The translations under genes were made by a program, and so were the position numbers. Below, piece by piece: positions 11,565 through 17,260 of a stretch of 63,289 bases of DNA; the stretch's first letter is position 1, and every line of letters begins with the position of its first letter. Source of the stretch: a bacterium (GTDB lineage: Bacteria > Calditrichota > Calditrichia > RBG-13-44-9); NCBI GenBank assembly GCA_020350205.1, contig CP070707.1, forward strand, positions 2,232,073 through 2,295,361, in the 5' to 3' direction. The notes under the pieces are model-generated. The model did not search any database. It was not told the origin of the DNA and was given only the letters and a program-made list of their open reading frames with translations.

Positions 11565-12422
11565 TTAGTAAGGTTTAACTCCCTTCTTATATACCCCCAG
11601 TAAGCTGACTGCCTGGCTCTTTTCTCGCATGGCCTCCAGGGCCCTGAGAAAATCTTCCTCTATGGTCCACTCCAGATCGATGTGGAAACTATACTCGTCC
11701 GGATAGCCTGGAACGGGGACAGACTGGATGAGGGTGAGATTGATGTTGAATTTTTTAAAGATTTCCAGAATTCCTGCCAGTGAACCGACCTGGTGTGAGA
11801 TACGGAAGTTTAGAGATGCTTTCTGGCCGCCGGTTTTAATTTTGATTTTTTTCGGAGCAATTACGAAAAATCGGGTATAATTCTGTTTCAAATTTTCAAT
11901 TCCTGCTTCCAGAATATCCAGGTTGAATAGTTCCGCCGCCAGAGCGCTGGCAACTGCCGCTACTCCTCTAACCTGATTTAAAGCAATCTCGCGGGCGCTT
12001 TCGGCTGTGTCATCTGTTTCCAAAGGTTCCAGATGAGAGTATTTTTCAAAAAATTCGCTACTTTGGGCCAAAGCCATCGGGTGAGATTTGACAATCTTAA
12101 TATCCTGCACAGTCTGACCTGGTAGTGCCATCAGATTATGACTGATTCGGAGATATTGTTCTCCGATAATTTGCAGAGGATGGTTTTCCAGAAGACCATA
12201 ATTGGGGAGCAAACTTCCGGCTAGACTGTTTTCAATCGCCATAACACCATAATCAGAATCACCATGAACCACGGCATTACAAACCTGTTTGAATGTTTTA
12301 CAGGGTAAAAGTTCTATTGACTGGTCTTTAAAGTATTCCCGTACTGCCAGATCATGAAACGAGGCAATACCTCCCTGTATTGCTACTCGATAAGTTTCTC
12401 TTCTGGTTGTTGAGTATGACAT
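11565..12422 (-). CDS. pheA: Prephenate dehydratase with ACT domain
   Basis: This enzyme decarboxylates and dehydrates prephenate to phenylpyruvate, the penultimate step to phenylalanine. The catalytic domain spans about residues 10-190 (VAIQGGIASFHD, MAIENSLAGSL, and the catalytic Thr-Arg-Phe at 183-185). An ACT domain follows (residues about 203-280, QVGSLAGIL). The usual phenylalanine-binding ESRP motif is replaced by QSVP (233-236), a variant I associate with Bacteroidota-type enzymes. Unlike the enterobacterial P-protein there is no N-terminal chorismate mutase; that activity is on AroC two genes upstream. It is the last gene of the aro operon, 60 bases after tyrA. Confidence 0.95.
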   Translation of the reverse strand: MSYSTTRRETYRVAIQGGIASFHDLAVREYFKDQSIELLPCKTFKQVCNAVVHGDSDYGVMAIENSLAGSLLPNYGLLENHPLQIIGEQYLRISHNLMALPGQTVQDIKIVKSHPMALAQSSEFFEKYSHLEPLETDDTAESAREIALNQVRGVAAVASALAAELFNLDILEAGIENLKQNYTRFFVIAPKKIKIKTGGQKASLNFRISHQVGSLAGILEIFKKFNINLTLIQSVPVPGYPDEYSFHIDLEWTIEEDFLRALEAMREKSQAVSLLGVYKKGVKPY

Positions 12423-12482: not shown

Positions 12483-13214
12483 TTAAAATTTATCCAGTTT
12501 CTGTTTTAATGACTGCAGGGAATCAAATAATTTTTGTCGCATTTCCTTGGTATAAGGATTATAGTGATGCATATCTTCAAATAACTCCCAGGTATCGCGA
12601 TTAATTTTTCTCATCAAATCGATAAGATTGCGGTAGTCGCGGGTGGCAACCGATGGTTCCGGCAGGGGGAGTCCGTTCAGGGCGCGTCCGATAAAATGTG
12701 TCATGGCCAGGGTCCATGCCATCAGACGATCCTGTTCATCAGGAGTCATTTCTATGATCCTGATTCCGAATCCCTCCCAAAATCTTTTGATTTGGTCCAG
12801 ATCATCATCTCGAATTTGATAAGGGGTAACTATCATTATATGGTCCTGCAGAGAATCCTTCACCGAGTCGGGACCGAACAAGGGATGGCTCCCCACAATC
12901 TGTACTCCTGCCGGAAAATGCTTGGCCATAACCTGCAGGGGATAGGTCTTCACGGCACATACATCCATCACCAGAGATTGGCTGGAGAGGTAGGGGGCTA
13001 TCTCCTGGCAAACCGATCTGATACTGGAAACCGGAACGGCCAGGATAACCAGATCATTTTTACAAACATGTTCCAGATTATAAAAGGGAATGGCCGATAA
13101 ATTCTGGTCTGCCTGTTTATCTGGATCATAGACTTGTATGGGGATGGCAGTATGCAACTGATTGTAGAGCAATTGACCAAACCTGCCAAATCCAATTAAA
13201 CCCAGAGTCTTCAC
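12483..13214 (-). CDS. tyrA: Prephenate/arogenate dehydrogenase, monofunctional
   Basis: This enzyme catalyses oxidative decarboxylation of prephenate (or arogenate) towards tyrosine. The Rossmann NAD(P)-binding loop GFGRFGQL is at residues 8-15, followed by LVILAVPVSSI and VMDVCAVKT. GSHPLFGPDSVKDS carries the catalytic His and MTHFIGRAL the substrate-side His. At 243 residues it is short for the family (about 270-370) because it has neither a chorismate mutase nor an ACT domain. Its ATG overlaps the aroC stop by four bases (ATGA at 13211-13214), so translation is coupled to the AroC-mutase fusion that makes its substrate. Prephenate versus arogenate preference cannot be read from sequence. 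Confidence 0.92.
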   Translation of the reverse strand: MKTLGLIGFGRFGQLLYNQLHTAIPIQVYDPDKQADQNLSAIPFYNLEHVCKNDLVILAVPVSSIRSVCQEIAPYLSSQSLVMDVCAVKTYPLQVMAKHFPAGVQIVGSHPLFGPDSVKDSLQDHIMIVTPYQIRDDDLDQIKRFWEGFGIRIIEMTPDEQDRLMAWTLAMTHFIGRALNGLPLPEPSVATRDYRNLIDLMRKINRDTWELFEDMHHYNPYTKEMRQKLFDSLQSLKQKLDKF

Positions 13215-14554
13215 TTTAGTGTTTCTCCCTGAAGGTGATGAGAATCGCTCAGAATGGATGTGAATATAGAATCAACCAGATCTTTGGGTATATCGAGGGT
13301 TCTGGCCTGTTCTTGCCATTGCCTCACTTTAAATTCCTCCCGTTCGGCATCATGCACTTTTCGGGAATTTTGGGCTTTGAATTCCGCTATTTTACGGATT
13401 AGATTCCGCCGCTGTGCTAGTAGAAGGATGAATTGCATGTCGAGCATATCAATTTGGTGACGAATTTCATGTAAACGACTCTCATTCGATAAACGTTCCT
13501 GCATTAATATATGGTCTATCAGAACAAGAGCGACCATAGCCTCGGCAACAGGCACGATTCTGGGACAAATGCAGGAATCATGGCGACCCTCCACAGTTAA
13601 TTTTACCGGATTACCCTGATTATCCACAGTATCCTGTTCTTTCCGAATGGAAGATGGGGGTTTTACTGTAATACGCATGATCAGATCTTCACCATTGGTG
13701 ATTCCTCCCAGAACACCACCGGCGTGATTTGTTCGGGTACTGAATCGCTTCTTTTTTTTATTGAAATAGAAGTTATCATTAAATTCACTCCCTTTCATCG
13801 ATGCTGCTTGAAAACCGTCACCCATTTCAAAAGCCTTCACGGCACCAATGGACATTAAAACCTGTGCTAAATCAGCTTCCAGTTTGTTGAAAACAGGCTC
13901 ACCCAATCCGGACGGACAATTTTTTACCTGAATTTCGATTACCCCGCCGAGAGAATCACCCTCATTTTGCGCCTGAAGAATCGCCTCAGTCATTTTTTTT
14001 GCGGCTGTGGCATCTGCCGATCTTACAGGATTTTTCTCAATCTGATCCAGATCAATCGATTGAATTTCGATTTCTCCAATCCGCCGGGTATAGCCAAAAA
14101 TCTCAATTCCCCTACTTTTCAGAAATTGCTTCGCTACCGCCCCGGCTGCGACCCGAGTCGCTGTTTCACGACCACTCGCCCGACCACCACCCCGATAATC
14201 GAAAATTCCATATTTTTCAAGGAAAGAGTATGCTGCATGTCCGGGTCTGAGTATATCCCTTAATTTCTGATAATCACCGGACCTCTGATCCTGGTTTTGA
14301 ATCAGTATACAGATTGGAGTACCCGTGGTCTTTCCTTCAAATACCCCGCTGATTATCTTTGCCTGATCAGTTTCCTTCCGGGGTGTGACCACCGAACTCT
14401 GTCCCGGTCGCCTCCGGTCCAGTTCGTACTGAATCTGATCTGTGTCTATGGGCAATCCCGGTCGCAGACCATCTATAACCAAACCGATGTAGGGGCCATG
14501 ACTCTCTCCGAATGTCATTACCCGGAAGGCAGATCCATATATATTTCCGCTCAT
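13211..14554 (-). CDS. aroC: Chorismate synthase fused to a C-terminal chorismate mutase (AroQ class)
   Basis: Residues 1 to about 358 are a complete chorismate synthase, which converts EPSP to chorismate using reduced FMN: GESHGPYIGLVIDG, RRRPGQS, RPGHAAYSF, RGGGRASGRETA, TNHAGGVLGGI and CICPRIVPVAEAM are all present. Residues 361-447 are a full AroQ-type chorismate mutase domain (chorismate to prephenate). By eye the catalytic set of the E. coli mutase is conserved: the Arg in HEIRHQID, Arg and Lys in QRRNLIRKIAEFK, Asp, Arg and Glu in HDAERE, Ser in LSDSH and Gln in HLQGE. The fusion therefore performs two consecutive steps. The neighbours are aroA upstream (40 bases) and tyrA downstream (4-base overlap). 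There is no frame break at the junction. TyrA and PheA lack this domain, so the fused domain is probably the mutase for both branches. Confidence 0.93.
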   Translation of the reverse strand: MSGNIYGSAFRVMTFGESHGPYIGLVIDGLRPGLPIDTDQIQYELDRRRPGQSSVVTPRKETDQAKIISGVFEGKTTGTPICILIQNQDQRSGDYQKLRDILRPGHAAYSFLEKYGIFDYRGGGRASGRETATRVAAGAVAKQFLKSRGIEIFGYTRRIGEIEIQSIDLDQIEKNPVRSADATAAKKMTEAILQAQNEGDSLGGVIEIQVKNCPSGLGEPVFNKLEADLAQVLMSIGAVKAFEMGDGFQAASMKGSEFNDNFYFNKKKKRFSTRTNHAGGVLGGITNGEDLIMRITVKPPSSIRKEQDTVDNQGNPVKLTVEGRHDSCICPRIVPVAEAMVALVLIDHILMQERLSNESRLHEIRHQIDMLDMQFILLLAQRRNLIRKIAEFKAQNSRKVHDAEREEFKVRQWQEQARTLDIPKDLVDSIFTSILSDSHHLQGETLK

Positions 14555-14594: not shown

Positions 14595-15911
14595 CTATGT
14601 CATTTGCTTGAGTGACTCGAAATAATTCCAAAATTCAGGAAAAGATTTGTTTACACAACCCGGATTCTCGATTTTGATCCCGGGAATTCTTAAACCGGCT
14701 AGAGCGAAACTCATGGCAATACGGTGATCATCAAAAGTGGGCAGGGTCGAACCCACTAACGGAACAGGTTTAATGATCAGATCATTTCCATCCAGCAAAA
14801 TCTTGCCCCTGAGTTTCTGAATATTACCGATGATGGCATTCAGGCGATCGGTTTCCTTGAAACGCAAATGTTCAATAGCCCGTAATCGGCTTTGTCCTTG
14901 CACGAACAGACTCATCACGGCCAGAGTAGGAACCAGATCCGGCTGCGAATTCATATTGACATCAATTCCCTTAAGATTTCCGGCTTCAATACATACCTGA
15001 TCATCCCTCCAAAATATCCTTGCCCCCGCTGCTTTAAGAAAATCCAGTACGGCCCGATCTCCCTGGACGGAATTCTGATAAAGATTTTCAATGCAGACTG
15101 AACCACCACTGATCGCTGAACCGACTGCAAAATAGGAAGCACTGGAATAATCTCCTTCCACCTTTGCATCTGTCAACTGGTACTTCTGATCACCGGCAAT
15201 AATGACCAGTCCCTTTTTTTGCTGAATCCGGATCCCCGCAGTTTTAAGCAATTCTTTTGTCAGCTGAACATAAGATTCGGAAACGATTGCTCCGGTGCTC
15301 GAAATTTCCATTCCCTCCCGGGTGAGGGGTGCCAGCATCATGAGTGCCGATAGAAATTGTGAAGATTGGGAGGTGTCGATCTCAACTTTTCCACCCCGGA
15401 TCCGGGTACCTTTTAGTTTAAGAGGTAAATATCCATCTCGGTGTTCCAGGCAAACCCCTAGTGCACGTAAGGCATTTATAAGAGGTGACATGGGACGTTC
15501 CTGCATGCGGGGGGAACCACGGAACAGATATTCTCCGGGAAGCGCCGCAGCGATGGCGGTTAAAAGGCGAGTGCTTGTCCCGGAATTCCCCAGATCTATT
15601 GTGATAACTCCCGCGGGTGGTTTCCTTATACCAGAGAAAACGATGCTATTATCTTGCTTCTCCCACTGGAAACCCATCTTGCGTAATGCCTCAAGGGTAA
15701 TCAGAACATCTTCACTGAAAAGTACATTGTGAATCCGGGAGGGTTTTTGAGTTAAAGCTCCCAGGATAAGTAATCGATGGGAAATACTTTTTGAAGGTGG
15801 TGCAGGAAACAGACCCCGAATTTTGCCGGGTTTTATCTCGTAGGGTGGGAAAGGGTTCAGCTTATTTTGAGGAATTGATTTCATAGATACCGGAAAATTT
15901 CTCAGCACCAT
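14595..15911 (-). CDS. aroA: 3-phosphoshikimate 1-carboxyvinyltransferase (EPSP synthase)
   Basis: This enzyme transfers enolpyruvyl from PEP to shikimate-3-phosphate. The N-terminal PPSKSISHRLLILGAL binds substrate phosphates, LGNSGTSTRLL is the PEP-loop motif (family consensus LGNAGT), and RMQERPM, DTSQSSQFLSALM and the C-terminal RFKETDRL and FDDHRIAMSFA motifs are intact. The 438 residues match the family length. A second in-frame ATG nine codons in (15884) is possible; neither start has a strong ribosome binding site. It is the second gene of the aro operon, 100 bases after aroF, with no terminator visible between them. The Ser in LGNSGT in place of Ala is noted; such loop residues affect glyphosate sensitivity in this family, but nothing firm follows here. 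Confidence 0.95.
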   Translation of the reverse strand: MVLRNFPVSMKSIPQNKLNPFPPYEIKPGKIRGLFPAPPSKSISHRLLILGALTQKPSRIHNVLFSEDVLITLEALRKMGFQWEKQDNSIVFSGIRKPPAGVITIDLGNSGTSTRLLTAIAAALPGEYLFRGSPRMQERPMSPLINALRALGVCLEHRDGYLPLKLKGTRIRGGKVEIDTSQSSQFLSALMMLAPLTREGMEISSTGAIVSESYVQLTKELLKTAGIRIQQKKGLVIIAGDQKYQLTDAKVEGDYSSASYFAVGSAISGGSVCIENLYQNSVQGDRAVLDFLKAAGARIFWRDDQVCIEAGNLKGIDVNMNSQPDLVPTLAVMSLFVQGQSRLRAIEHLRFKETDRLNAIIGNIQKLRGKILLDGNDLIIKPVPLVGSTLPTFDDHRIAMSFALAGLRIPGIKIENPGCVNKSFPEFWNYFESLKQMT

Positions 15912-16011: not shown

Positions 16012-17049
16012 TTAAATTTGGCCAGCCGAAATTTCTTTTTGATAAATTTCCTGCCATTCAGTAAAATGGCGTATACGGTTCATCAGCCTTTTGAAGGATG
16101 CCGGATCCAGCGTCTGGTCGGCATCAGACCAGGCCTGTTCCGGATGGGGATGGACTTCGATCATCAGTCCGTCTGCACCTACCGCCAGGCTAGCCAGGCT
16201 AAGGGGTTCTATAAGATCTCTTCTGCCAGTGCCGTGGCTGGGATCTACAATAATGGGAAGATGAGAAATATTCTTAATTGCTGGTACGACATTGAGATCC
16301 AGGGTATTTCGGGAATATTCTACAAAAGTTCTGATTCCACGTTCGCACAGAATAATCCGATCATTTCCTTCCGACATGATGTATTCAGCACTCATTAGAA
16401 ATTCAGTCATCTGTGCGGACATTCCTCTTTTTAAAAGAACCGGTCGATTTACCCGTCCCACCGCCTTCAGAAGCTCGTAATTTTGCATATTTCTTGCCCC
16501 GATTTGCAGCACATCAGCATATTCTGCCACCAACGGAACAAACTGGGCCTCCAACACTTCAGTGATAATATACAAGCCAGTTTCTTCTCGCGCTTTTTGC
16601 AGATGCTGTAAGCCCTCTTCGCCAAGGCCCTGGAAACTATAGGGGCTGGATCTGGGCTTAAACGCACCACCCCGCAGGAGATGACCGCCATTTTCCTTTA
16701 CGATATGAGCCGTCTCAAGAATTTGCTCTTCACTCTCCACAGAACAGGGACCGGCGATGACAACGGGAGTCCCATTTCCAAAAGCAACGCCGTTCAAATA
16801 GATTACGGTATTATCTTTTTTAAATTCCCTGCTTACCAACTTATATGGTTTGGAAATGGGAATCACTTTTTCGACACCGGATAAAGTGAGAAGATGTTCG
16901 CGTCTCACCTGATGTTTGTAACCTATAACACCAATAATAGTTCTTTCCTCCCCTTGCGAGATATGAGCACGGGCACTATGGGTATTTATGAATTGTTCTA
17001 CCTGCTCAATATCGTGTGAAGTAGCATCTGCTTTCATTACAATAACCAT
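16012..17049 (-). CDS. aroF: 3-deoxy-7-phosphoheptulonate (DAHP) synthase with N-terminal regulatory domain
   Basis: This is the first step of the shikimate pathway, condensing PEP and erythrose-4-phosphate. It is the type I-beta enzyme with an N-terminal ferredoxin/ACT-like domain (residues 1 to about 70), as in the Thermotoga enzyme, where that domain gives feedback inhibition by Tyr and Phe. The barrel carries [41 protein letters not shown] and [14 protein letters not shown], including the metal-binding Cys and His. GAAGGGAAC 6-14 bases before ATG 17049 is a good ribosome binding site. It is the first structural gene of the aro operon and sits directly behind the attenuator at 17076-17160, so transcription into it should depend on charged tRNA-Tyr and tRNA-Phe. 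Confidence 0.95.
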
Positions 17050-17075: not shown

Positions 17076-17107
17076 AAAAAAACCCCTCCCGGTATCCTGA
17101 GAGGGGT
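17076..17107 (-). terminator. Attenuator terminator in the aroF leader
   Basis: Read on the minus strand, ACCCCTCTC (17107-17099) pairs with GGGAGGGGT (17090-17082) around an eight-base loop, followed by seven U (17082-17076). This is a textbook intrinsic terminator, but it lies only 27 bases before the aroF start codon rather than after a gene. Its 5' half is shared with the competing antiterminator (17100-17160), which identifies it as a conditional terminator. Confidence 0.85.
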
Positions 17108-17160
17108 CTGTGTATTCAATGTTTTATTTAGCTAAGGTAAATTTATTGAATACCCCCTCT
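17100..17160 (-). promoter_or_regulatory. Antiterminator helix of the aro attenuator
   Basis: On the minus strand AGAGGGGGTATTCAAT (17160-17145) can pair over 16 bases with ATTGAATAC (17120-17112) and CCCCTCT (17106-17100), leaving a five-base bulge ACAGA. This uses up the 5' arm of the terminator, so the two structures are mutually exclusive. The first arm begins one base after the last Tyr codon of the main aromatic cluster in the leader peptide. That is the geometry expected if a ribosome stalled on Tyr/Phe codons leaves this arm free. Confidence 0.8.
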
Positions 17161-17209
17161 GATAAAAATAATAGCTAAAATAATAAATTTTATTCACATT
17201 TGTTTTCAT
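17132..17209 (-). CDS. Tyr/Phe-rich leader peptide of the aro operon
   Basis: This 25-codon reading frame runs from ATG 17209 to TAG 17132, ahead of aroF. Residues 8-16 read IYYFSYYFY, and there is another Tyr at residue 20, giving six Tyr and two Phe in 25 codons. It starts about 16-22 bases after a predicted transcription start and ends before the terminator hairpin. This layout (promoter, short peptide rich in the end-product amino acids, alternative hairpins, biosynthetic genes) is that of the enterobacterial trp, phe and his leaders. The ribosome binding site is weak (GAG about 10 bases upstream). No function other than sensing translation speed is expected for the peptide. Confidence 0.82.
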   Translation of the reverse strand: MKTNVNKIYYFSYYFYQRGYSINLP

Positions 17210-17231
17210 TTGTAGTTACTCGTTTTGCTTC

Positions 17232-17260
17232 AATATATGCCCTAATGGGTGTAAAAACAA
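17232..17260 (-). promoter_or_regulatory. Promoter of the aro operon leader
   Basis: On the minus strand TTGTTT (17260-17255) and TATATT (17237-17232) are separated by 17 bases. The -10 matches the consensus at five of six positions, while the -35 matches only the first three. The predicted start of transcription near 17225 places the leader peptide ATG (17209) about 16 bases into the RNA. Confidence 0.5.

Follow-up and report, generated by a model that had tools for sequence, protein, structure and literature searches.

A putative leader-peptide attenuator sensing tyrosine and phenylalanine charging before aroF in Calditrichota

Immediately upstream of aroF in a Calditrichota genome, we found an element that we read, with a probability of roughly 0.92, as a ribosome-mediated (leader-peptide) transcription attenuator that would sense charged tRNA-Tyr and tRNA-Phe and control the aroF-aroA-aroC/CM-tyrA-pheA operon. 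We infer transcription start, leader translation, ribosome stalling, and a change in read-through at this leader from the sequence and its comparison with related genomes. The kind of attenuator is already known, and what appears to be new is its occurrence in Calditrichota, because a search of the openly accessible literature found no earlier report of attenuators in Caldithrix/Calditrichaeota. In a 2010 survey, regular leader-peptide attenuators were known only from Proteobacteria and Actinobacteria, and Firmicutes were added (PMC2965389). The main value added here is a predicted order-wide pattern of aro, trp, and his leaders together with a variant that lacks a protector helix. With less confidence, we consider it rather probable that leader-peptide attenuation is general for aro, trp, and his in this Calditrichota order, that type I-beta DAHP synthase genes acquired aromatic leaders repeatedly in several phyla, and that the protector-less switch described below needs translation to terminate, not to read through. 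Together with the aromatic aroF leaders in other phyla, the three Calditrichota versions (aro, trp, and his) would extend the known range of attenuation, and such leaders may offer a simple readout of the amino acids that an uncultured bacterium can synthesize.

Operon and leader elements in the window

The stretch of DNA analyzed (63,289 nucleotides; hereafter the window) comes from a 4.06-Mb, single-contig genome (G000), whose nearest named relatives are Caldithrix sp. RBG_13_44_9 and a Calditrichaeota MAG. The operon lies on the minus strand and begins with aroF (16012..17049), encoding a type I-beta DAHP synthase with an N-terminal ferredoxin-like domain (PF18152, PF00793) that matches 1rzm / 3pg9 over its full length (E 1e-115). 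This gene is followed by aroA for EPSP synthase (14595..15911), aroC for chorismate synthase, which carries a chorismate mutase type II domain fused at its C terminus (13211..14554; PF01264 at 10-350 and PF01817 at 364-442), tyrA for prephenate dehydrogenase (12483..13214), and pheA for prephenate dehydratase (11565..12422), in which the ACT domain is weak. Upstream of the leader, ackA is located on the same strand as aroF. A second DAHP synthase gene of G000 (L125; G000:C1:667692-668696), located beside aroB, encodes a protein with 57% identity to AroF of the window and no match to PF18152; used as an internal control, this DAHP synthase-aroB unit had neither a leader nor a terminator of the attenuator kind. 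When G000 was searched for leuA, hisG, and trpE, the former two gave no match and trpE none above the cut-off, and the bacterium (genome 92% complete) is probably auxotrophic for several amino acids while retaining Tyr/Phe synthesis.

All elements of the putative attenuator are on the minus strand. A promoter-like TTGTTT-N17-TATATT (17232..17260) matches 8 of the 12 sigma-70 consensus bases and is absent from the list given by the scan; with only 8 matches, the site is weak when taken alone. It is followed by a 25-codon leader ORF, MKTNVNKIYYFSYYFYQRGYSINLP* (17132..17209), which has six Tyr and two Phe codons, the presumed regulatory ones being codons 9-16 plus Tyr 20, and has no strong Shine-Dalgarno sequence. 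The 5' arm of the predicted antiterminator (arm 2, AGAGGGGGTATTCAAT; 17145..17160) is situated within the leader frame at codons 17-22. Its 3' arm (arm 3, ATTGAATAC-(ACAGA bulge)-CCCCTCT; 17100..17120) overlaps the 5' arm of an intrinsic terminator (17076..17107), and pairing of 17160-17145 with 17120-17112 and 17106-17100 gives 16 bp with a 5-nt bulge. The terminator consists of a GC-rich 9-bp stem (ACCCCTCTC/GGGAGGGGT; 17107-17099 paired with 17090-17082, including one G-U pair) and a T7 run at 17082-17076, the first T of which doubles as the closing base of the stem. This is the longest terminator-like stem between 12000 and 20000. A first-pass annotation of this DNA had described the promoter-like pair, the leader frame with six Tyr and two Phe, the 16-base helix with its five-base bulge, and the nine-base hairpin followed by seven U, and each was recovered at the above coordinates; the distance from the T run to the aroF ATG, given there as 27 bases, is in fact 26.

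Comparison with shuffled sequences indicated that these features are unusual for this DNA. When the same upstream DNA was dinucleotide-shuffled 300 times, one shuffle reached the aromatic density of the leader (8 Tyr/Phe per 25 codons), and a codon pattern for YYFxYYFY occurs only once in the whole 4.06-Mb genome. The 2:3 antiterminator duplex, calculated with the terminator loop included, has an energy of about -21 kcal/mol (-20.8), and this value was not reached when the arm-2 side was dinucleotide-shuffled 500 times.

Conservation of the element before aroF

The conservation count covers the order's families f1 and f2, in which seven genomes, G000 among them, have complete aroF upstream regions. 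All seven contain a short frame with a dense run of Tyr/Phe(/Trp) codons and a terminator just before aroF, and the aromatic density of the leader had a shuffle p value of <=0.05 in each. The leader peptides, MKTNVNKIYYFSYYFYQRGYSINLP in G000, MKSLKNTFYYYGYYYYFGGWCSDSQ in G001, MKSFESREYYQTFDYYGFYFYGGSNSRLSID in G002, MRMVCKMVYFEFQLYYFYYFP in G003, MASTERLNHFFGFYFGYYYWTQ in G007, MVQSIEKQWSLTNVFYFYYYWGFYVSASQ in G011, and MASTERLVRLFNFYFGYYWTW in G005, are not conserved in sequence except for the repeated aromatic codons, whose order varies. The T run of the terminator begins 32-36 nt before aroF in all seven, and in 6/6 relatives the leader start is preceded, at a distance of 21-42 nt, by a promoter-like pair that resembles that of the window and has 16-17 nt spacing. 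The gene upstream of aroF is ackA only in the genus of the window and differs elsewhere, and in family f2 aroF is the first gene of a longer operon that also contains aroB, a fused aroDE, aroA, etc., as read from ORF sequences. Because the leader and terminator stay with aroF across differing upstream genes and operon orders, the element appears to belong to aroF.

A second arm able to pair with the 5' side of the terminator is present in every one of the seven genomes, with a helix of 9-16 bp. The weakest 2:3 helix, that of G001, has 9 bp and, with 82 of 1000 shuffles as good, is on its own not better than chance. The helix would extend upstream of the terminator in G000 and G003 and into the terminator loop in the others; the sequences used thus differ between genomes, but the predicted antiterminator architecture is the same. 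In G005, G007, and G011, a protector helix of 14-20 bp, whose 5' arm starts from codons 2-3 before the aromatic run, completes a predicted four-segment layout of the trp type. No strong 1:2 protector was found in the window, where the best candidate has 9 bp of A-U pairs only and 25 of 1000 shuffles were as good.

When 40 related genomes were searched with the hairpin motif, nine matches were obtained, eight of which are before aroF. One genome, G009, was left out of the above count because a contig end cuts the locus at the hairpin. In G013 of family f3, nearly the same hairpin (at about 1190-1220 of L126) lies farther upstream of aroF without an aromatic frame, and the shortened AroF of this genome has no regulatory domain; this hairpin is possibly a relic of an attenuator. 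Beyond this order, the remaining families of the class have no leader with terminator before aroF. The first-pass annotation had proposed to compare the regions upstream of aroF homologues and had named a hairpin kept without the Tyr/Phe frame as evidence against its reading. The frame, the terminator, and the competing arm occur together in 7/7 f1/f2 genomes, and a hairpin lacking the frame was seen only in the single f3 genome.

Predicted switching and alternative readings

In the mechanism that we propose, RNA polymerase would initiate a short distance upstream of the leader ORF, followed by a ribosome. When charged tRNA-Tyr or tRNA-Phe is short, the ribosome would stall at codons 9-14 and leave arm 2 largely free to pair with arm 3 before the 3' arm of the terminator is made, and transcription would proceed into aroF. 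When charged tRNA is plentiful, the ribosome would translate through arm 2 as far as the stop codon, thereby hiding this arm; arm 3 would then fold with arm 4, and transcription would end at the U run.

We modeled this switch by removing the ribosome footprint, assumed to reach 12 nt 3' of the A site, from the RNA of the intermediate that exists before the terminator 3' arm is made. The probability that arm 3 is paired upstream was 0.66 with Tyr9 in the A site and 0.40 at codon 13, and fell to 0.16 both at codon 16, where a stalled ribosome would itself cover arm 2, and at the stop codon. The earlier proposal that a stalled ribosome frees the antiterminator arm is thus borne out in calculation (0.66 versus 0.16). 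The contrast is comparable to that of E. coli trpL, which gave 0.62 when stalled and 0.06 at the stop in the same calculation. At full-length equilibrium, the terminator still prevails in the window even with a stalled ribosome (P 0.90), likewise in E. coli trpL, and the switch must therefore be kinetic. Without a ribosome, the probability was 0.68 in the window versus 0.06 in trpL. Because the window lacks a good 1:2 protector, read-through is the predicted default when its RNA is not translated, in contrast to E. coli trpL. A protector (1:2) helix is a defining trait of the trpL subtype but not of ribosome-mediated attenuators in general.

Could the hairpin instead be only the 3' terminator of ackA, and the aromatic frame a chance product of AT-rich DNA? 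ackA does lie upstream on the same strand, and TAT/TTT triplets are abundant in this AT-rich region. However, the leader and terminator still stand just before aroF in genera without ackA upstream, such a frame is rare in shuffles of the same DNA, and a promoter-like site precedes the leader in 7/7 genomes, and we regard this explanation as very unlikely. A leader frame before a terminator would also be compatible with nascent-chain arrest, in which a TnaC-like peptide senses free tyrosine or another metabolite, not tRNA charging. This is likewise highly improbable in our estimate, since arrest peptides require specific residues whereas the aroF leaders share only repeated aromatic codons, and since the leaders before trpE and hisG in this order (see below) carry runs of the cognate codon.

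An RNA aptamer or an RNA-binding protein might control the terminator, translation of the frame being incidental; T-boxes control such genes in other lineages, and a Bacillota aroF homologue (L108) has one. An Rfam search of the window, however, detected no known riboswitch, and indeed no Rfam family, above threshold, and the covariance model of the T-box riboswitch (RF00230) had no match there. Moreover, families f1 and f2 have little in common beyond the frame, the arms, and the terminator, and control of this type seems exceedingly unlikely.

Related leaders of other operons and other phyla

The first-pass annotation had referred the scheme to enterobacterial leaders, but aroF leaders outside enterobacteria have already been reported for Corynebacterium glutamicum (PMC11802643, PMC4046766) and, as a uORF candidate, for Acholeplasma (PMC8632094). 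Like E. coli pheL-pheA and trpL-trpE (RF01859, RF00513), the window has a leader peptide of cognate codons and mutually exclusive antiterminator and terminator structures; unlike them, it precedes a different operon, has no Rfam-level similarity (21.6 bits with Phe_leader, RF01859, below the cut-off of 55), and lacks the strong 1:2 protector arm. C. glutamicum aroR-aroF has a leader peptide attenuator with a Phe-Tyr-Phe leader before a DAHP synthase operon, with read-through upon stalling (Neshat et al., 2014, as described in PMC11802643; PMC4046766), and is described as responding to limitation of Phe, not Tyr (PMC11802643). It belongs to another phylum, and its aromatic run, as described there, is much shorter, whereas the window leader is dominated by Tyr (6 Tyr, 2 Phe). 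The uORFC-13-1 motif before Acholeplasma aroF, a candidate uORF with predicted attenuation, also combines Phe codon(s) with an intrinsic terminator (PMC8632094); it comes from another lineage and has at least one Phe, versus the dense Tyr/Phe run of the window.

We also searched other operons (trpE, hisG, and leuA) by family within the Calditrichota order. Trp-run leaders precede trpE in five genomes (L149, L150, L152, L153, L154); the peptides are MNGFLFKYTPKKSWWWWTLTRSGWRW in G007, MKFFSITYATHNAWWWWTLTRSGWRM in G011, and MKQFLFKYTPKKSWWWWTLTLSGWRR in G005, Trp runs are also found in G006 and G012, and SWWWWTLTRSGWR is an example among the five upstream regions. His-run leaders, such as MIRFHQNNLHHHHCHHHTRLRDGTGELRMI in G007 and NNLHHHHCHHH, precede hisG in six genomes (L183-L187, L189). 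A terminator lies 51-63 nt after the leader stop in 11/11 of these trpE and hisG leaders, which are probable trp and his attenuators. Because such leaders with terminators precede trpE and hisG, this lineage appears to use ribosome-mediated attenuation as a general mode of control. The leuA upstream regions contained no convincing Leu/Ile/Val leader.

The codons of the aroF leaders seem to follow biosynthetic capacity, a suggestive pattern in too few genomes for significance. One or two Trp codons are present in the aroF leaders of 3/3 genomes that have trpE and whose aroF leader could be read, and among the four genomes in which trpE was not found only that of G001 (81% complete) has one. The window leader, in a genome without trpE above the cut-off, has no Trp codon.

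Aromatic leaders before aroF were also found in other phyla. Within the order to which a Saccharofermentans MAG belongs, 11/11 close homologues have an aromatic leader and 10/11 a detected terminator, and the same search of more distant homologues found both in 0/19. Across Bacillota, with a clade of 11/11 included, aromatic-rich leaders, mostly with a terminator, precede aroF genes (L190-L200, L056, L097, L070, L093, L072, L079, L073, L074, L066). Aromatic-rich leaders with terminators were likewise found before aroF in two Chloroflexota (L055, L067/L220), being rare within Anaerolineae, and in one record each from Synergistota (L101) and Treponema (L099). The aroF genes of these cases in other phyla are of type I-beta, as in the window.
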